From positions 2,319,897 through 2,360,251 of the forward strand of contig CP070755.1 of NCBI GenBank assembly GCA_020348885.1: a DNA stretch of 40,355 nucleotides, written 5' to 3'. Source of the stretch: Candidatus Coatesiibacteriota bacterium. GTDB lineage: Bacteria; RBG-13-66-14; B26-G2; WVWN01; G020348885. Of the stretch, positions 6,621 through 21,787 are shown in pieces; the first letter of the stretch is position 1, and each line of letters opens with the position of its first letter. The translations under genes and the position numbers were made by a program. A model generated the notes under the pieces. It searched no databases and had not been told where the DNA came from. It saw only the letters and a list, made by a program, of their open reading frames with translations.

Positions 6621-7855
6621 TACTCCAACCCCCTGAGCTCCCGGTCGATATCCCGAAACTCGTGGAGCCGCAGCAGTAACTCGTAGTTTCCGTGCCACTG
6701 GACGAAGTCGGCCCCGACCATGTAAGCGCCGTGCTTTGCGGTTCTCACGAAGTAGTGCCAGAAATCGAAGTATTCGAACTCGGCGGGCTCGTCGAACGGT
6801 TCGGGCGTCAGGACGCCGTCGGCGTACAGGCCGTCCATTATCGCTTTGACCTCGGCCACCCTATCGTTGGTGGCCGTCAAGGTCAGGTCGGCGTCGGCGT
6901 AGAACTCCTCGACGTGGGTCGCGGCGTGGCAGTTCAGACAGAGTTCCTTCATCCGCTCCCGGTTGGCCATCCCGCCGGGCCGTTCGGCGCTTATCGCGGC
7001 GAAGAGGTAATACGACAATCTCTCGCCGACGTCGTGGGTCATCCCGCCGCCGTTCAGACCCGAAAGATGGCACGTGGAGCACGTGGGCGCGGGCATGTCC
7101 TCCGTGGTCAGGCGGGCCGGCTCGACCTTCAGATTGAAATCGCCGCGCTTGGTCCGGTAGACGATACCGTGAGAGGATTCTTCGTAGATCTCGATCTGGC
7201 TGTGGTCCGGCCCCAGATGGCACGCGCCGCAGGTCTCGGGCTCCCGGGCCTCCTCGACGCTGAAGTAATGGCGCAGGTGACACTTGTTGCAGTTCCCCAC
7301 GGAGCCGTCAGCGTTGGGCGCTCCTATCTCGTGGCACGTCCCGCATCCGTTCTCCACGGCGCCGACGCCCTCGAGTTGCCCGAGTGCGTTCGGCCCCCGG
7401 TCCATCGCTTCGGGATGATACCTATAGGCGTAATCGTACTGGGCTTGAGTAAATGGTTCCTTGCCCATCACCGCGGTCCACGCAGGCGCGCCGTGGCGGC
7501 TCCGGGTGAGCTCCCGGTACTCCTCGGCGTGGCACTCGGCGCAGTTCCCGGCGGTGACGACCCGGACCACCTCGAAACCCTTGTGCTCCATAACCTCCTG
7601 TCCCGGAAGAGGTTTATGGCAGTCGAAGCAATTTATGTATTCGGCGTGAGGACCCTTCTCGAACGTTTCGACGATGGCCGGCGTCTCCCGGCGGTGGCAC
7701 TGGACGCATTTCCCGGCGGCGCGGGCCTCCTCGGCGGTCAAACGGGACTTCCCCGAATCGGGCCTCATCCCCGTCAGCGCGTACGCGAGGGCGAACAGCA
7801 CAAGCGTAATCAGAATGGCAAAGATTACAACCAGATACCACTTAACGCCTTTCAT
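6620..7855 (-). CDS. Octaheme cytochrome c, hydroxylamine oxidoreductase-like
   Basis: A 411-residue protein with one N-terminal membrane anchor (about residues 6-28) and eight CXXCH haem sites, at Cys50, 76, 105, 171, 189, 209, 259 and 306. The count, spacing and the C-terminal WHYFVRTAKHGAYM / VQWHGNYELL region match the hydroxylamine oxidoreductase (HAO) family, whose fourth haem is the active site in known structures. HAO-like enzymes either oxidise hydroxylamine or hydrazine, or reduce nitrite, NO or hydroxylamine. The direction depends largely on a crosslinking Tyr that I cannot place without alignment. An anaerobic Rrf2/ferredoxin context suggests detoxifying reduction. It faces the periplasm. 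Confidence 0.85.
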   Translation of the reverse strand: MKGVKWYLVVIFAILITLVLFALAYALTGMRPDSGKSRLTAEEARAAGKCVQCHRRETPAIVETFEKGPHAEYINCFDCHKPLPGQEVMEHKGFEVVRVVTAGNCAECHAEEYRELTRSRHGAPAWTAVMGKEPFTQAQYDYAYRYHPEAMDRGPNALGQLEGVGAVENGCGTCHEIGAPNADGSVGNCNKCHLRHYFSVEEAREPETCGACHLGPDHSQIEIYEESSHGIVYRTKRGDFNLKVEPARLTTEDMPAPTCSTCHLSGLNGGGMTHDVGERLSYYLFAAISAERPGGMANRERMKELCLNCHAATHVEEFYADADLTLTATNDRVAEVKAIMDGLYADGVLTPEPFDEPAEFEYFDFWHYFVRTAKHGAYMVGADFVQWHGNYELLLRLHEFRDIDRELRGLE

Positions 7856-7865
7856 AGCACCTCCT

Positions 7866-8654
7866 CTACAACCACTGGCGGTTCAATATCTCGCCTCCTA
7901 TCCCGACGACAATCTCCTCGACGGGAACGTTCTTTCCCGACGCTTTGACGGCGTCGACGACCGCGCGGGTCAAGCCGCCGCAGCACGGGACTTCCATCCG
8001 GGCCACGGCGACAGTATGAACGTTGTTGTTCGCGACGATGGCCGAAAGCTTCTTTATATAGAACTCTACGTCGCCGAACTTGGGGCAGCCTATCGCGATG
8101 GCGTGGTCCTTAACCAGGTCCGGGTGAGTATTCGCATACGCCAGGGGCGAGCAGTCGGCTATGACCATCAGGTCCGCGTCCTCGAAGTACGGCGCCCGTG
8201 GGTTGACCAGCTCGATCTTTACCGGCCACTGGCCCAGCTCCGAGACGAGGCGCCCGCCCCCCGCCGCCCCGGCCTTCCGTTCGGCCCGCATGTCCATCGT
8301 AGCGGCGCCGGGGCAACCGCAGGCTATCTCTTCGGCGGACTGGGCCCGGGCCTCCGCTCGGGTTCCCCCGCTTTCTGCGTTAACCACGCCGCGGGCCGCA
8401 CCCGTCCCGGCCAAGTGTTCCTCGACGGCGGCTTCGTCGAAGTCGTCGGCCTCGCGTTCTTCCATGGTAATAGCGTCCCGCGGGCACTCGCCCAGGCAGG
8501 CCCCCAACCCGTCGCAGTACTTATCGTCCACGAGCCGGGCCTTGCCGTCTATTATCTGGATGGCCCCCTCGGCACAGGCGGGTACGCAAAGCCCGCAGCC
8601 GTCGCACTTCTCCTCGTCTATCTTTACTATCTCCCGCATGGTCTTGGTAGTCAT
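7866..8654 (-). CDS. 4Fe-4S dicluster ferredoxin-like protein with C-terminal domain
   Basis: A 262-residue cytoplasmic protein. The N-terminal 65 residues hold two [4Fe-4S] motifs: CDGCGLCVPAC and a second reading CDGLGACLGECP. After a flexible, Ala/Glu-rich linker (about 75-125) with a CGCPG segment, a C-terminal domain carries more cysteines, in ADCSPL, GCPKF and the pair in VPCCGG. I recall similar proteins encoded beside Rrf2 regulators and hydroxylamine or NO reductase genes in anaerobes. It lies 10 bases before the cytochrome gene and 4 bases after the Rrf2 gene, so the four form one operon. GGAGG precedes the start. Confidence 0.75.
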   Translation of the reverse strand: MTTKTMREIVKIDEEKCDGCGLCVPACAEGAIQIIDGKARLVDDKYCDGLGACLGECPRDAITMEEREADDFDEAAVEEHLAGTGAARGVVNAESGGTRAEARAQSAEEIACGCPGAATMDMRAERKAGAAGGGRLVSELGQWPVKIELVNPRAPYFEDADLMVIADCSPLAYANTHPDLVKDHAIAIGCPKFGDVEFYIKKLSAIVANNNVHTVAVARMEVPCCGGLTRAVVDAVKASGKNVPVEEIVVGIGGEILNRQWL

Positions 8655-9317: not shown

Positions 9318-9890
9318 TTAATTATACATCGACTTAACTTTTCCGAACGACGCAGGTTCCACAGCGGTATCGTCGGGGTCGATATTCCATGTACCCAAAG
9401 AGGTTTTATCGCCTGTGGTACTGCCGTCGTTGTTTGCCGAGTTACCGGCGGCGTACACGGTAACGATGCCCACGTACGCGTCAGGTTCCCAGTCAAAACT
9501 CCAGGTCGCCGAGCCGCCCGTGCCGGGGAACGTCCCAGCGGACGTATGCTTGACGTAAGTCTTCCCGCCGGACGTCGAGTCCTGGGGGTTGGTCGGGTCG
9601 GTTATCGTTACGCTGCCGGCCTGGTCACCGTTCTCGTCGAGGACGACCGCCTCGAAGCCCCAGCGCATCGCCGACGAATCGGCGACCTCGACTTCGATCG
9701 TATAGGCAGTACCCGGGACGTACGTATCCGGTCCCGATACAGTCGTAGTACCGCCGGAGCCGTCGTGGCAGTCATTGCAAGTCCCTTCGCCGGGCGCGCC
9801 GGTTTTACCGTCGGGCGGACCGCCGGAAAACGCGAACGCCGACGCAGAGACCATAAAAAAACTTACTAAAACTACCGTACTCTTGTTCAT
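9318..9890 (-). CDS. Secreted choice-of-anchor-V domain protein with one CXXCH haem site
   Basis: A 190-residue exported protein with a clear Sec signal (MNKSTVVLVS...ASAFA, cleavage about residue 20). The mature start FSGGPPDGKTGAPGEGTC followed by NDCH is the hallmark of the choice-of-anchor-V (Reeler-like) family. Cys38-x-x-Cys41-His42 is a single c-type haem site. A beta-rich domain follows, with the family's GW/WGFE and YAAGNSANNDGS segments. The last residues VEPASFGKVKSMYN resemble the tail of the unrelated secreted protein at 10750 (VEPASLGDAKATFK), suggesting a shared sorting or anchoring signal. GGAGGAAGAT precedes the ATG. Confidence 0.8.
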   Translation of the reverse strand: MNKSTVVLVSFFMVSASAFAFSGGPPDGKTGAPGEGTCNDCHDGSGGTTTVSGPDTYVPGTAYTIEVEVADSSAMRWGFEAVVLDENGDQAGSVTITDPTNPQDSTSGGKTYVKHTSAGTFPGTGGSATWSFDWEPDAYVGIVTVYAAGNSANNDGSTTGDKTSLGTWNIDPDDTAVEPASFGKVKSMYN

Positions 9891-9911
9891 ATCTTCCTCC
9901 CTTGTTCATAA

Positions 9912-9932
9912 TAATAACGATTATTGTTATTA
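9912..9932. promoter_or_regulatory. Candidate operator, 7-bp inverted repeat
   Basis: TAATAAC and GTTATTA form a perfect inverted repeat with a 7-base AT-rich spacer, immediately downstream of the -10 of the promoter for the gene at 9318-9890. The AT-rich form recalls Fur-superfamily boxes, but no Fur-type gene is in the window, so the regulator is unknown. Confidence 0.45.
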
Positions 9933-9960
9933 ATATAACAAATTAAAATCCGGAAGTCAA
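9932..9960 (-). promoter_or_regulatory. Sigma-70 promoter for the choice-of-anchor-V gene
   Basis: Minus-strand TTGACT (9960-9955) and TATATT (9937-9932) separated by 17 bases. The -10 touches the inverted repeat at 9912-9932. Confidence 0.75.
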
Positions 9961-10002
9961 GTTAATCAGCGAAAAAAGGCCGCTTTCCCGCCCGTTCGGT
10001 TA

Positions 10003-10476
10003 TTAACCAGCGAATAACGCTTCGGCTCTCGGGAACAACAACTCTTCTTCAAGTAATATATGGGCGTTTAATACGACCGCCAGCGTAACGAATCCCCCCG
10101 CCAGTTCCTCATGCTCGTCCTCCAGAGACTCCGACAACCCTACCACCTTGTCGAAAAACGCCTTCGTCTCCTCATGTTCGCTTATGAGCTCCCGGACCGT
10201 CACTTCGAAGAATTCCAAAGCCCCGGGCTCTCCCGAGTCGGGCGTCCCCGCTTTCTCGGCCCGGAGTATCTTCGAGAACAGGTCCTGCTCCTCCCCTTTA
10301 AAATGGTCTTCCAGCGCGTCCAACATAGCGACAATCTCCGGCACAAGGGTTTCCGCGTTTTTATCGCCTTCGTCGGCCAGCTTTTTTACGGAATTGAACA
10401 GGTACTGGAGCGTCTTCCGAAGGTAACGGTGTTGCACGTCTACGAGAACCCCGATAAGCTCTTTGTTGGAAATCAT
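10003..10476 (-). CDS. Hemerythrin-like / RIC-type di-iron protein
   Basis: A 157-residue four-helix-bundle protein. The ligand set of hemerythrin-like domains is visible: His16, His58 with Glu62 (HFKGE), His101 and His139 with Glu143 (HILLEEE). The C-terminal LLFPRAE is typical. Proteins of this type bind oxygen or NO at a di-iron centre, or repair iron-sulfur clusters (RIC/ScdA). The N-terminal ScdA domain is absent. Its position beside the Rrf2/HAO-like module fits nitrosative or oxidative stress defence. It has its own promoter and a GGAGG site. Confidence 0.8.
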   Translation of the reverse strand: MISNKELIGVLVDVQHRYLRKTLQYLFNSVKKLADEGDKNAETLVPEIVAMLDALEDHFKGEEQDLFSKILRAEKAGTPDSGEPGALEFFEVTVRELISEHEETKAFFDKVVGLSESLEDEHEELAGGFVTLAVVLNAHILLEEELLFPRAEALFAG

Positions 10477-10497
10477 GTAAAACCTCCTTCAATCGCG

Positions 10498-10527
10498 ATT
10501 ATAAACCCGGTACAAAACGCGCGTCAA
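10498..10527 (-). promoter_or_regulatory. Sigma-70 promoter for the hemerythrin-like gene
   Basis: Minus-strand TTGACG (10527-10522) and a perfect TATAAT (10503-10498) separated by 18 bases, 22 bases before the start codon. Confidence 0.75.
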
Positions 10528-10749
10528 GGTATTATATGACCAAAAGGCCAATAGCACCATCTCCGGCACGACTGCCACTGAAACCGGAACCGTGGGTCCT
10601 GTGAACTCAACCCGGGACTATAACATAGGGGAGACGCGTAACATTCCGCCGTTTCATGTTACGTATTTAGTAACGGCCTTTAACCAGGGCGGTTTCACTT
10701 TTTAACAATGCCGGACTGGAACCCTAAACTTAAAGCGGAAGGAGAACAT

Positions 10750-11373
10750 ATGCATATCGGAATAGCTTTACTGGGCGTATTATGCGTCGCGCTACCGACG
10801 GCGGCCGCCCAAATAGAATTAACGCCGGTCCAGGACGCGTACGTTTGCGACTGCCTTCCCGACGTTACGAACCCCAACGGCGGCCCTAATTATCTCTACC
10901 AGGGCCAGTATGGGAGTTGTTTCGACCGAACGCTCGTCCAATGGGACATATCCGGAATACCCTCCGATGCTACAATCGTTAACGCCGAAGTCCGGCTTTA
11001 CTGCGAAGGTTTCTACGGGGCCGAATCCGGATATATGATTTATTACCGAATAACCGAACCCTGGGACGAAAACACCGTTACTTATAACAACAGCCCGGCG
11101 TACAGCGACGACGTCTCCGCTACCGCCGACTGGCCCGACGTTGATACGTGGCACACCGTTAACGCGACGGAATTCGTAGAAGGTTGGTACGACGGGTCGT
11201 TCGACAATTACGGACTTTATTGCCATTGCGAAGATACGACCGGTACGTGCGTTGCCGGGTATTGGTCGTCTAACTACTCGGACGAAAGTTTGCGACCCAA
11301 ATTGGTTATAGAATATACGATGTTGGGCGTCGAACCCGCCAGTCTGGGCGATGCCAAAGCCACGTTTAAGTAG
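10750..11373 (+). CDS. Secreted DNRLRE-type (CBM96-like) domain protein
   Basis: A 207-residue exported protein. ATG 10750 is chosen over an in-frame start at 10708 because AAGGAG lies just upstream and a clean signal peptide begins there (MHIGIALLGVLC...AAA, cleavage about residue 20). The mature part reads TPVQDAYVCDCLPD, LVQWDISGIPSDATI, then a Trp-rich strand pattern and PKLVIEYT. This matches the beta-sandwich DNRLRE family of extracellular proteins, some of which bind polysaccharide. It has several cysteines that could pair outside the cell. It ends in VEPASLGDAKATFK, similar to the tail of the protein at 9318-9890. Confidence 0.8.
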   Translation: MHIGIALLGVLCVALPTAAAQIELTPVQDAYVCDCLPDVTNPNGGPNYLYQGQYGSCFDRTLVQWDISGIPSDATIVNAEVRLYCEGFYGAESGYMIYYRITEPWDENTVTYNNSPAYSDDVSATADWPDVDTWHTVNATEFVEGWYDGSFDNYGLYCHCEDTTGTCVAGYWSSNYSDESLRPKLVIEYTMLGVEPASLGDAKATFK

Positions 11374-17542: not shown

Positions 17543-20500
17543 CTACGTGTCGAACCCAACGCCGGGTAACCGGGTTACCGTTACAGCTGCGCCGGCGTAA
17601 GAACCATCTCCAGTAAATATAGGCGACGCCGAAACCAGGAATTTTCTCCGCCGTCCGTTATTGCGGTTCAATTCGACGGTATACCGAGAGCTTTTACCAA
17701 GACGCTGTTTTTCGGTTTTCTTCAAAATCTTCCTATAACCTTTACGAGTAGTCAATTCCTGCATGTTCATCCCGGTCAACTCTTCAACGGTATAACCGAG
17801 GGCTTCGGCAAATGCTTTGTTTACGAAAGTCAAATTCTCCGCCACGTCTATTATACCGATACCCTCTTCAACCGTTTCTACCAAATTACGGTACTTATCT
17901 TCGGATTCTTTTAACGCTTCCTGGACACGTATACGAGTGAAGACGCCTCCAATTTGAGCGGCTATAGTTTCAAGCGCATTGCGAGCAGATATCGGCACCT
18001 CATCGGTAACGTGCGAAGCTACGTTCATGCAGGCGATGATTTTTCCCTCGTAAAATATGGGAAGAACGGCGATAGCGCGAAGCCCCTCGTTACGGCGCGG
18101 CTCGTCCAAAGGTACTCCCAATTCCTGATGTACGGAATAAACGGGCTTACCTGCCTTGATCAACCGGGCGCTGGGAGAATCAGCACTGTAGTGAGACGCG
18201 CTTTTTACAAAATCGGATAGTAATCCTTTAGAGTAAACAAGGTTTAAATCGCCGTTCTCCTCGTCAACGAGGTACACTCCGCCCGAATCCATACCTCCCG
18301 CTTGAATGGCCGCTTCGGTACAGAGAGCCAGCGCATCGTTGAGGTTTGATGTAACGTTGAGCGCCTCGCTAAGTCCGTGCTGGATACGGGATAAATCCTC
18401 GGCCCGTTTGCGCTCTCGAATATCTCTAGCGAATGCTAAGTCGGCGGGACGGCCGTTGTAATCGAAAACGCCCGCGTTAATTTCAACGTCTATCGTTGCG
18501 CCATCACGTCGCAGAAGTTTCGTCTCGTAAATCGGAGGTACGTTTTCTCCCGCGATACGCCTGCGGTAACGGTCCACTAACTCATCATGAACCTCGGGTA
18601 CCACGATTTCCGTGAATTCCGTCCCCGCTAATTCGTCGGGAGTGTACCCCAACATGCGCGCAGCCGCCCGGTTGGCGAAGAGAAAACGTCCGTCCTGGAT
18701 AATAGCGATACCGTCAATAGCCTGCTCAACCAGGGAGCGGTACTTTTCCTCACTTTCCTTCAACGACTTCTCAGCCCGTACGTGGTCCGATATATCCGTA
18801 GAGAGAACCAGTATCTGATCCCTCTCCCCGTCCGGCCCCTCCAACGGAACCGCGTTACACAGGAAGGTCCGTCCCGCGAAATCCCCCTCAAATGTCACGG
18901 ATTCGCCTCCGATTACGCGCTTATAATTTTCGGCGACCATTTGGGCTATATCCGGTGGCAGAACATCGTAGATGCTCTTACCCGCCAGCTCCTCGTCGGG
19001 CAAACCTATTTCCCTAAGTACCTCTCCGTCGCTGAATACGTATCGGAAGTCCTTATCCATGATATGTACGGCGCCCTTCGGCAAATTGCTGGAAATCTTT
19101 TTATACCGTTCTTCGCTTTCCCGCAGTGCTTCTTCGGCCCGCTTTCGCTCGGTGACGTCCATGGAGATTATCTGGAAGCCGGTAACCTCACCATCCTTCA
19201 TTAATAAGGAATCTATAACGTTAATCCAACGCTTTTCCCCGTTTTTCCTTGTAATTTCGAGCTCGTAAGGTTCGACCGCTTTCCCCTTTAAAAGGTCTCC
19301 AAACTTTTCTCTCAACACTGGTAGGTCTCCAGCGTTTAACGTAGTAAGTTCTTCGAACCGTTTTCCGATTATTCCCTCTTTCCGGTATCCTATTAATTCT
19401 TCAGTATATCTATTGCAGTCGATGATAACGCCCGACCTATCCACCAACGTAATGGAGGTCGGAGAGTCCTCGAATAAACTTCGATATTTTTCCTCGGATT
19501 CTCGCAGCGCCTCTTCGGCCCGTTTTCGCTCCGTGATGTTAAAAGCAACTCCCCTTAATCCGACAGATTTTTCTCCTCTTATAATGGAGCTGGAGTATAT
19601 GACGACCGGGAACGTGCTGCCGTCCTTCCTTCGTACCGTATATTCGCTATATTCGGTCTCCTCTCCCCTCAATCTCTTTTCAATGTTCAGCTTGACTCTT
19701 TCTCTGTCCTCGGGGATAAATAATTGGATAGCGTTAAAACCCTTGTCTACATCCTTCTGAGTATAACCCGAGGATTCGAACCCGCATTGGTTCACGTAAG
19801 TAAAATTGCCTTCTATGTCGATTTCAAAAACGGTCTGCGGTAATAATTCGGCCAACTCCTTGAACCTTTCTTCACTTACTAGTAACGCCTCCTCGGCCCG
19901 CTTACGCTCGGTGATGTCGCGCGCGATGTGCACCGCACCCATCCGCTTACCTTCGGCGTCGTTTACGGGAGAAACGTAAACCTCGTAATAACGGTCCAGT
20001 TTTTTAAAGTATGCTTCGATTTTACGTTCTCTTTCGTCCAGAGGTACGCGGACGTGCGGGCAGAAATCGCACGGTTCGTCCGCTCCGTTAAGGGCCTCAT
20101 AGCAGTGGGCACCCAAAGCCTCTTTAGGTTCTACCCCGATTTTCTCAGCCATTGCCTTGTTAAGACGCAAGATGCGGCAATCGTCGTCTATTATAGCGAT
20201 GAGGTCCGGAATCGTATCAAAGGTCTTGCGCCACTCTTTAGCAGCGTTCCTTATTACGTCCTCGGTTTGTTTTCGGTCGGTAATGTCCACGGACATCTGA
20301 AATACCTCTTCGACCTTCCCTTCGACGAAAACAGGGAACATCTGCGAATATACCCACCGGCGACCGCCGTCCGGACGGGCGAACGAAAATTCCTTGGGCT
20401 CGCCAGTCTCTCCTGAGGCGAAGATTCGATCCAGATCATCCTTGAAACCGGCGTGATCTTCGCCGTTAAGGAACGTCAAAGTTTCCGCTCTTTCGCCGAT

Positions 20501-21751
20501 TACTTCGGTAGAAGAGTAATCGAAAATTTGTTCGGCCGCCGGGTTCCAATGCCGTATTTTCCCATCAGGTCCGAAACCCTGAACCGCTACATTCGGTACG
20601 TTTTCAAAAACTGACTCGAATCGGGAAAGCGCTTCCCTCGTGAAACGCTCGGCGTTCAACCTATCGGTGATATCCCGCGTTATCGCGCATATCCCGACAG
20701 GATTACCGTCAGCCCCGTGTACTATGGAATAAGATGCGGACGCGTAAAGGGTCGTACCGTCTTTTCGATGCCTTTCAATCGGTTCTTCGGCGTACCACCC
20801 GCCCTTCTCCTCGATAATCAGGAACAACTCGCGAAAATCCCTCGATTCCCCGCGGGGATTAATCAATTTATCTATGTATTTACCGAAGGCTTCCTCTTTA
20901 GAATAACCGTATATTGCTTCAGCGCCCCTATTCCAAGTTACCACTCGGCCATCTATGTCAGTCGTTATTATCGCATCCATAGACCCTTGAAGGACATTTT
21001 CTAAATATCGACGCGTCTCGGTTATTTTTCCTTCCAGGCGGATACGGTCGGTCACGTCGCGGCTGATACCTTTAATGCAGGCCGAGTCCCCGGACGCATT
21101 AAAAACCGGGCTTGCGCTCGTCTCTATATGTCGAACCGAACCTTCGCGGTGTATATACCGACAGAGGAAACCGTGTACGATTTCCTTTTGTCCAGTCAGC
21201 CGCCCCACTGCGGTACGGTACTTACTCCTATCGTCCGGGTGGACGAGGAACTCTTCGGCGGTGAAACCAACCAGTTCTTCAGGTTCGTAACCGAGTATCT
21301 CTAAAACCCCGGGACTTGAGTATACGAACTCACCGTCGGCGTCAACCTCCCAAATCCATTCCGGTATTTCCTCCACCAGGTTTCTGTATTTTTCTTCCGC
21401 CGACTTAAGCTGGACCTCAATCCGTTCGAACTCTGCGACGTCTTTCCCAATCCGTATAACCGCTAATTTTTCCCGATCGTCGCGCCGTAAAAGCGTAGCA
21501 AGTACACCGGAAAGATCCTTGGTTTCTTCTATCTCGTCGACGGTCCCTGACCCTGCGATAGAATTGACCTCGGTGGCTCGAAGCCCTTTAAGCCATTTGT
21601 CTATGTCGGCGTTGAAGGCGCGTACCTGTCCGCCCGAACGGAATACGGGTAGGCCGTCGCGTTCGCGCCTGATGGCCGTCGCGACGGAACACCCGAGGTA
21701 CCCGGAGATTTCCTTCCAACCGTTTAGAATATCCGCTCTTTTAAGCCCCAT
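17543..21751 (-). CDS. HTH + nine PAS + GAF sensory protein without kinase
   Basis: A 1402-residue cytoplasmic sensor. Residues 1-58 form a DNA-binding excisionase/MerR-like domain (NGWKEISGYLGCSVATAIRR, then GLPVFRSGGQ and DKWLKG). PAS domains of about 125 residues follow, ending near 234, 362, 490, 615, 742, 869, 990 and 1115. A GAF domain (about 1120-1265) and a ninth PAS (about 1290-1395) complete it. Linkers repeat the DITERKRAEEALRESEEKYR theme. No histidine-kinase, GGDEF, EAL or receiver domain is present, so the only evident output is the N-terminal DNA-binding domain. PAS4 has extra cysteines (Cys-rich EPCDFCPH). No membrane span is seen. ATG 21751 is preferred; GTG 21787 in frame is possible. 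Confidence 0.85.
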   Translation of the reverse strand: MGLKRADILNGWKEISGYLGCSVATAIRRERDGLPVFRSGGQVRAFNADIDKWLKGLRATEVNSIAGSGTVDEIEETKDLSGVLATLLRRDDREKLAVIRIGKDVAEFERIEVQLKSAEEKYRNLVEEIPEWIWEVDADGEFVYSSPGVLEILGYEPEELVGFTAEEFLVHPDDRSKYRTAVGRLTGQKEIVHGFLCRYIHREGSVRHIETSASPVFNASGDSACIKGISRDVTDRIRLEGKITETRRYLENVLQGSMDAIITTDIDGRVVTWNRGAEAIYGYSKEEAFGKYIDKLINPRGESRDFRELFLIIEEKGGWYAEEPIERHRKDGTTLYASASYSIVHGADGNPVGICAITRDITDRLNAERFTREALSRFESVFENVPNVAVQGFGPDGKIRHWNPAAEQIFDYSSTEVIGERAETLTFLNGEDHAGFKDDLDRIFASGETGEPKEFSFARPDGGRRWVYSQMFPVFVEGKVEEVFQMSVDITDRKQTEDVIRNAAKEWRKTFDTIPDLIAIIDDDCRILRLNKAMAEKIGVEPKEALGAHCYEALNGADEPCDFCPHVRVPLDERERKIEAYFKKLDRYYEVYVSPVNDAEGKRMGAVHIARDITERKRAEEALLVSEERFKELAELLPQTVFEIDIEGNFTYVNQCGFESSGYTQKDVDKGFNAIQLFIPEDRERVKLNIEKRLRGEETEYSEYTVRRKDGSTFPVVIYSSSIIRGEKSVGLRGVAFNITERKRAEEALRESEEKYRSLFEDSPTSITLVDRSGVIIDCNRYTEELIGYRKEGIIGKRFEELTTLNAGDLPVLREKFGDLLKGKAVEPYELEITRKNGEKRWINVIDSLLMKDGEVTGFQIISMDVTERKRAEEALRESEERYKKISSNLPKGAVHIMDKDFRYVFSDGEVLREIGLPDEELAGKSIYDVLPPDIAQMVAENYKRVIGGESVTFEGDFAGRTFLCNAVPLEGPDGERDQILVLSTDISDHVRAEKSLKESEEKYRSLVEQAIDGIAIIQDGRFLFANRAAARMLGYTPDELAGTEFTEIVVPEVHDELVDRYRRRIAGENVPPIYETKLLRRDGATIDVEINAGVFDYNGRPADLAFARDIRERKRAEDLSRIQHGLSEALNVTSNLNDALALCTEAAIQAGGMDSGGVYLVDEENGDLNLVYSKGLLSDFVKSASHYSADSPSARLIKAGKPVYSVHQELGVPLDEPRRNEGLRAIAVLPIFYEGKIIACMNVASHVTDEVPISARNALETIAAQIGGVFTRIRVQEALKESEDKYRNLVETVEEGIGIIDVAENLTFVNKAFAEALGYTVEELTGMNMQELTTRKGYRKILKKTEKQRLGKSSRYTVELNRNNGRRRKFLVSASPIFTGDGSYAGAAVTVTRLPGVGFDT

Positions 21752-21787
21752 TACCCTATTTGATAACGTTTGATAAGTTCTTAACAC

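Follow-up and report, generated by a model that had tools for sequence, protein, structure and literature searches.

Two Tail-Bearing Secreted Proteins in the Window

The DNA analyzed here (hereafter the window) is a stretch of 40,355 nucleotides from a genome affiliated with Candidatus Coatesiibacteriota (hereafter the source genome). It encodes a secreted choice-of-anchor-V protein and, on the opposite strand, a secreted DNRLRE/CBM96 protein (Table 1). A first-pass annotation of the sequence had held that these proteins end in a common tail and that the domains preceding the tails are unrelated, and both statements were borne out. The tail is seen in the open reading frames at 9318-9890 (-) and 10708-11373 (+), where it comprises 14 residues of the form V-E-x-x-S-[WLF]-G-x-[IV]-K-A-[LM]-[YF]-[RK]-COOH. 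The domains in front of it belong to two different families according to Pfam and NCBIfam domain matches, choice_anch_V (E = 3e-33) and DNRLRE/CBM96 (E = 2e-28). The frame at 10708-11373 (+) is the mechanically called one; the true start of the DNRLRE protein is probably 10750 rather than 10708, since an AAGGAG site precedes the ATG at 10750 and the signal peptide begins there, which makes this start the better fit to both features.

The choice-of-anchor-V protein contains a single CxxCH haem-binding motif. Near this CxxCH-encoding gene, the minus strand also encodes a multihaem cytochrome (PF13447; 6620-7855) and a ferredoxin-type protein (7866-8654). Elsewhere in the window, a minus-strand gene (17543-21787) encodes a protein of 1414 residues that comprises about nine PAS domains plus one GAF domain and in which Pfam found no output domain.

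Table 1. Features of the two tail-bearing genes, with positions counted from the first nucleotide of the window.
Feature	Position	Strand	Basis
Secreted choice-of-anchor-V protein, 190 aa, tail-bearing	9318..9890	-	NF041895, E = 2.9e-33, residues 11-166
Sec signal peptide of the choice-of-anchor-V protein, MNKSTVVLVSFFMVSASAFA	9831..9890	-	Sequence and signal-peptide heuristic
choice_anch_V domain	9393..9860	-	NF041895 model match
14-residue C-terminal tail of the choice-of-anchor-V protein, VEPASFGKVKSMYN	9321..9362	-	Sequence, pattern, PSSM
Secreted DNRLRE/CBM96 protein, tail-bearing	10750..11373	+	DNRLRE/CBM96 matches, E = 2e-28 and 3.5e-17
Sec signal peptide of the DNRLRE protein, MHIGIALLGVLCVALPTAAA	10750..10809	+	Sequence and signal-peptide heuristic
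DNRLRE domain, modelled as a closed beta-sandwich	10867..11313	+	Domain match and predicted model
14-residue C-terminal tail of the DNRLRE protein, VEPASLGDAKATFK	11329..11370	+	Outside the folded domain, pLDDT ~50

Recurrence of the Tail in the Source Genome

The 2.6 Mb source genome was searched on both strands with a back-translated pattern of the tail that carried no stop codon (V-E-x-x-[S/T]-x-G-x-x-K) and with the reversed pattern as a control. The pattern returned 26 matches and the control none. In 21 of these matches the protein ends exactly four residues past the K; the remaining five are short matches that lie internally or in a wrong frame. We also called 295 genes in 334 kb of the source genome, in stretches picked around tail genes (the window included), and scored them with a position-specific matrix (PSSM) trained without the two window tails. 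The scores were clearly bimodal, with 21 genes above 20 bits and the next best at -3.7. Five of the 21 lack the strict VE pattern (e.g., IEPTSMGTIKATYR and FTPASFGQIKALYK), and the tail genes read in the source genome therefore number at least 26. An 18-position hidden Markov model (HMM) of the tail, built from alignment A1, returned 106 source-genome matches at E up to 5, part of which were read and about five of which are expected by chance. The tail is common to many proteins of the source genome, and not by chance.

Distribution of the Tail Across Genomes

Within the Coatesbacteria-like phylum to which the source genome belongs, the strict pattern followed by a stop codon was detected in 12 of 14 genomes, with up to 25 copies (control, 0), and the tail HMM was positive in all 14. 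The two genomes that lack the strict pattern (G002 and G007) had been considered as tail-free contrasts within the phylum and were rejected as such because the HMM finds the tail in both. In the Eisenbacteria-type phylum (that of genome G017), 20 of 20 genomes encode the tail, with 13-37 copies per genome against none for the control. When each GTDB species was represented by a single genome, at least 127 matches were obtained; among the matches listed, all records are either named as Eisenbacteria, Coatesbacteria, Krumholzibacteria, Effluviviacota, Zixibacteria, or (in one case) Gemmatimonadota or are other metagenome-assembled genomes (MAGs), UBP1 among them. No record named as Bacteroidota, a large phylum rich in type IX secretion systems (T9SS), was among these matches. 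Twelve genomes, mostly from further lineages, contained 1-67 copies at E up to 0.01. The reversed control returned zero matches in each genome scanned with the pattern. As for the names, L057, L096, and related MAG records that NCBI assigns to Zixibacteria are likely misnamed Coatesbacteria.

Viral spread of the tail was considered and rejected. A collection of 2.9 million viral contigs contained one match (L290; IMGVR_UViG_3300031565_012670, 7695-7739). The body of this protein is similar to tail proteins of Coatesbacteria-like genomes, and the match is therefore taken to be either a host gene carried by a phage or host sequence included in the viral collection.

Restriction of the Tail to Proteins With Signal Peptides

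A simple signal-peptide rule was passed by 104 of the 295 called source-genome genes and by 19 of the 21 tail genes, the rule being crude in that a looser version of it also admits 16 of 100 shuffled proteins. In the remaining two tail genes a signal peptide lies just upstream of an in-frame TGA, such that all 21 can be read as secreted; no tail was found on a gene without a signal peptide among the 295. That the stretches were picked around tail genes is not expected to influence whether a gene has a signal peptide. Outside these stretches, the rule is passed by 87 of 100 complete tail proteins and by 49 of 54 HMM-found tail loci with a complete 5' end; in several of those that fail, a signal peptide is visible by eye.

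The first-pass annotation had proposed scanning the genome and its relatives for the tail and checking the hits for signal peptides. The tail proved to be recurrent in the source genome and kept across several phyla, and signal peptides accompany 21 of 21 source-genome tail genes when the two preceding an in-frame TGA are counted. It had also named two outcomes at odds with a sorting role, namely a tail missing from other secreted proteins or one equally frequent in cytoplasmic proteins. Neither was observed, and the tail instead occurs on dozens of unrelated secreted proteins per genome.

Anatomy of the Tail and Selection Acting on It

The consensus over the genome-contig matches is P/A-V-E-x-[STA]-[ST]-[W, or L/F in Coatesbacteria]-G-x-[IV]-K-A-[LM]-[YF]-R, in which the search pattern itself dictates V, E, G, K, A, and the end. 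In alignment A1, where tails detected without the VE pair are included, each of V and E is present in at least 90% of sequences and G and K are invariant. Position at the C-terminus was evaluated with the HMM, which imposes no stop requirement: among 60 sampled loci, 49 end exactly at the tail, and in 59 the tail lies within -1 to +3 residues of the stop. In three loci (L154, L160, and L283) the tails run 3-4 residues further (ALYRANPR, AIYRTGPR, and AMYRSPR), indicating that a short overhang is tolerated. In another (L284; G018:C289:15776-15895) the tail is followed by a TAG stop and by a second, near-identical in-frame tail within the next 22 codons before the next stop, which, judged from the sequence, is a tandem duplication of the tail-coding end.

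All synonymous codons are used at the invariant tail residues, including both TCN and AGY for Ser and both CGN and AGR for Arg. This free use of synonymous codons at fixed residues indicates that selection on the tail acts at the peptide level. Across eight DNRLRE proteins that share 23-34% identity with the window protein, half of the invariant columns (6 of 12) fall in the 14-residue tail.

For the DNRLRE protein of the window, the predicted model (mean pLDDT 75) comprises a well-formed beta-sandwich with a closing strand at residues 184-191, after which comes a flexible tail, modelled with low confidence and containing a short helix (residues 199-205). A single-sequence model of the choice-of-anchor-V protein was poor overall, with the lowest confidence at the tail. 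A generic amphipathic membrane helix was considered and is unsupported, because the helical moment of the tail (0.43) is not clearly above that of shuffled tails (0.35), 32% of which reach 0.43.

These structural features bear on the idea that the tail is no export signal but serves, once export is complete, for docking or retention by binding a periplasmic or surface scaffold (dockerin-like) or a membrane surface. A flexible tail with a short helix outside the folded domain, together with tolerance of C-terminal extensions of 1-3 residues, would suit such a motif. We nonetheless consider it improbable, given that no recurrent partner or scaffold was seen, that the helical moment is unremarkable relative to shuffled tails, and that invariance at G and K speaks for a specific receptor.

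Passenger Domains and Exchange of the Tail With Other C-Terminal Signals

After removal of their tails, 136 tail proteins formed 52 BLAST clusters. Passengers in the source genome include PD40 propeller, Big_5, Cleaved_Adhesin, DNRLRE, and choice_anch_V domains. Tandem paralogues among the tail genes (e.g., L204) are what would be expected if the tail reflected common descent of one family or, with coincidence and a mobile DNA repeat as further variants, had no sorting role at all. Such an origin is exceedingly improbable in light of the unrelated passengers, the silence of the controls in all genomes scanned, the free synonymous codon use, and the confinement of the tail to secreted proteins.

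The window choice_anch_V protein also matches NF041894, a MYXO-CTERM-anchored family (positions 3-154 of 203), and the tail sits at the place of the MYXO-CTERM anchor. A second kind of exchange was identified by pairing the domains of tail proteins with those of larger proteins from similar genomes (L094 with L166, L061, and L102; L110 with L109; L098 with L161). Five of six larger proteins in these pairs match TIGR04183, the model of the type A T9SS C-terminal domain (CTD), at E < 0.001; relative to the curated cut-off, three of the five are clearly above, one is just above, and one is below. L102 has only FlgD/PorU-type C-terminal similarity. By these sequence matches, homologous domains are followed by the tail in some proteins and by a type A CTD in others. 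Type A CTD matches number 24-70 per genome alongside the tail proteins, and no locus with both was found among the listed source-genome loci.

That choice_anch_V proteins have alternative anchors, and that the tail and the type A CTD replace one another on homologous domains, places the tail among sorting signals. We consider it very probable that the tail is a short sorting or targeting signal for Sec-exported proteins. In practical terms, a single profile of 14 residues predicts dozens of exported proteins in each genome, many of which lack a known domain, and thereby opens the secretome of several uncultured phyla to sequence-based study.

Relation to Known Sorting Signals

The tail had no match in Pfam or NCBIfam, TIGR04183 included (E up to 1 and 10), no PDB chain contained it, and no description of it was found in the open literature, with subscription journals and preprints lying outside that search. 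The first-pass annotation had suggested an undescribed sorting system. The tail does appear to be undescribed in these sources; a sorting system is a matter of interpretation, and its best candidate is an existing one, the T9SS.

Substrates of the T9SS with type A (TIGR04183) or type B (TIGR04131) CTDs resemble tail proteins in combining an N-terminal Sec signal peptide, which tail proteins share with type A substrates, with a C-terminal signal on dozens of unrelated passengers. The kinds of domains are similar and type A CTDs occur in the same genomes as the tail. However, these CTDs comprise about 100 or 150-235 residues rather than 14, have other conserved residues, and form an Ig-like beta-sandwich (about 70-100 residues in type A), whereas the tail is predicted to be unfolded. 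PEP-CTERM, GlyGly-CTERM, and MYXO-CTERM tags are likewise short C-terminal homologies on many unrelated secreted proteins, and in the choice_anch_V family the tail stands in for MYXO-CTERM, but it lacks their transmembrane helix, basic cluster, and known paired intramembrane protease. Tail proteins end about four residues past the conserved K in nearly all cases and have no hydrophobic stretch. LPXTG sortase signals are also C-terminal and found on Sec-exported proteins, yet the tail lacks the LPXTG motif, the hydrophobic stretch, and the positive end. The C-terminal beta-signal of outer-membrane barrels is similarly short, read at the outer membrane, and has an aromatic residue near the end; the tail, in contrast, is carried by soluble domains rather than barrels, and its hydrophobic spacing presumably does not fit the published beta-signal motif. 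As judged from its sequence, then, the tail works like a sorting signal yet lies outside the known signal families, because it differs from T9SS CTDs in size, fold, and model match and from CTERM tags in lacking a transmembrane helix and basic end.

Candidate Machinery

SprA was identified in all 14 genomes of the Coatesbacteria-like phylum (by PF14349 in 11 and by a Coatesbacteria SprA query in 14). It was also identified in 17 of 18 tail genomes reached via tail loci, or in 15 of 16 when two that repeat phylum genomes are set aside, and in 0 of 14 controls. The repeats are two "Zixibacteria" genomes with SprA at coordinates identical to those in phylum genomes (G014 and G005; G025 and G003), which indicates that they are the same genomes, Coatesbacteria-like by GTDB. 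The exception is G024, a UBP1-like and perhaps incomplete genome with 11 tail copies, in which no SprA_N match was found. SprA is widespread in these phyla regardless of the tail, and its co-occurrence is thus not discriminating.

Members of the PorV family are present in 14 of 14 phylum genomes at 6-14 per genome. A dedicated PorV gain was considered and rejected, as counts of 6-14 everywhere do not discriminate. Some of the PorV/PorQ-family matches in the 14 genomes lie in open frames of 600-700 amino acids, i.e., they are fused or extended. In the source genome, SprA is encoded in two halves 1.17 Mb apart (G000:C1:245142-246884 and 1412990-1414720; L226 and L227). Each half-frame runs into a run of 100 N, by which the single contig is a scaffold joined in the wrong order; the split is probably not biological.

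Known T9SS signals are about 100 amino acids (type A) or 150-235 amino acids (type B) in length, and Flavobacterium johnsoniae uses separate shuttles for each, PorV for type A and a PorP/SprF-like protein for type B (PMC12618676). The CTD is gripped jointly by SprA and PorV (PMC10994853). Given these signal-specific shuttles and the joint hold on the CTD, a PorV-type shuttle is the most economical idea for the tail. We infer that the tail may be read by the T9SS, most likely via such a shuttle, a proposition for which we judge the case to be evenly balanced. On balance, we regard as slightly more likely than not a combined reading of two-signal export in which the tail is bound by an SprA/PorV-type T9SS receptor. 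The N-terminal signal peptide would direct the protein through Sec to the periplasm, where an outer-membrane receptor would bind the 14-residue tail protruding from the folded domain and deliver the protein to the cell surface or the exterior. The receptor would most likely be the T9SS, comprising the SprA translocon and one of the many PorV-family proteins as a tail-specific shuttle. The tail might then be cleaved or might serve to anchor the protein.

Both SprA and PorV-family proteins, which typify genomes with a T9SS, are present in the tail genomes, with the exception of SprA_N in G024. Against a T9SS reading, the tail is, on sequence, far shorter than every known T9SS signal and matches no T9SS model. 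Also against it, G024 has tails and no SprA_N match, and no recurrent shuttle gene adjoins the tail genes at 120 loci. These same facts, namely tails that are unlike any T9SS signal and that occur in G024, would suit a dedicated machine operating in parallel to the T9SS, such as a sortase-like transpeptidase, a lipid-attaching enzyme, or an outer-membrane translocon, as would the coexistence of tail proteins with type A CTD proteins (24-70 CTD matches per genome) that share no listed source-genome locus. Clustering of 716 ORFs from the 120 loci, however, revealed no machinery gene recurring beside tail genes; those that recur are mostly passenger paralogues and unrelated genes. The dedicated processing enzyme that the first-pass annotation had suggested looking for was accordingly not found at these loci. 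The swapping of tail and CTD on homologous domains also counts against a dedicated machine, since it suggests a common destination. We therefore view a dedicated machine as a tentative alternative. It is likewise doubtful, if conceivable, that the tail marks its own export and surface-sorting system, separate from the T9SS and handling dozens of proteins in each cell by means of a very short C-terminal signal that contains no helix. That such a system might be common to Coatesbacteria, Eisenbacteria, Krumholzibacteria, UBP1, and neighbouring lineages is a suggestion we make with similar reserve.

The two readings differ in what they imply. If the T9SS reads the tail, a short peptide suffices in place of a folded domain, which simplifies what SprA and PorV recognise; if the reader is another, a secretion or anchoring system is still to be found.

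In-Frame TGA Codons in Tail Genes

Several tail genes contain an in-frame TGA with a signal peptide upstream of it, namely L199 (8427-8429, minus strand), L203 (9189, plus strand), L242/L090, L033, L247, L208 (minus strand), and L278. Cases of this kind with TGA clearly outnumber those with TAG (1-2) or TAA (0). No tRNA-Sec was found in the source assembly among the 150 of 368 candidates that were scored, the top two matches being Leu tRNAs. Stem-loops occur downstream of the TGA, with folding energies only modestly below those of shuffled sequences. The sequence contexts recur among homologues: a C-G-[EST]-TGA family comprises three homologues in two genomes (two source-genome paralogues and one in genome G004/CP070633), and GG-TGA-G is found in the DNRLRE group in G008 (two paralogues) and G010. 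A thioredoxin-like tail gene of the source genome reads W-K-Q-S-TGA-G-A-C, where thioredoxins have W-C-G-P-C at the corresponding site. From their sequences, the TGA-bearing tail genes look like candidate secreted selenoproteins in which TGA would encode selenocysteine.
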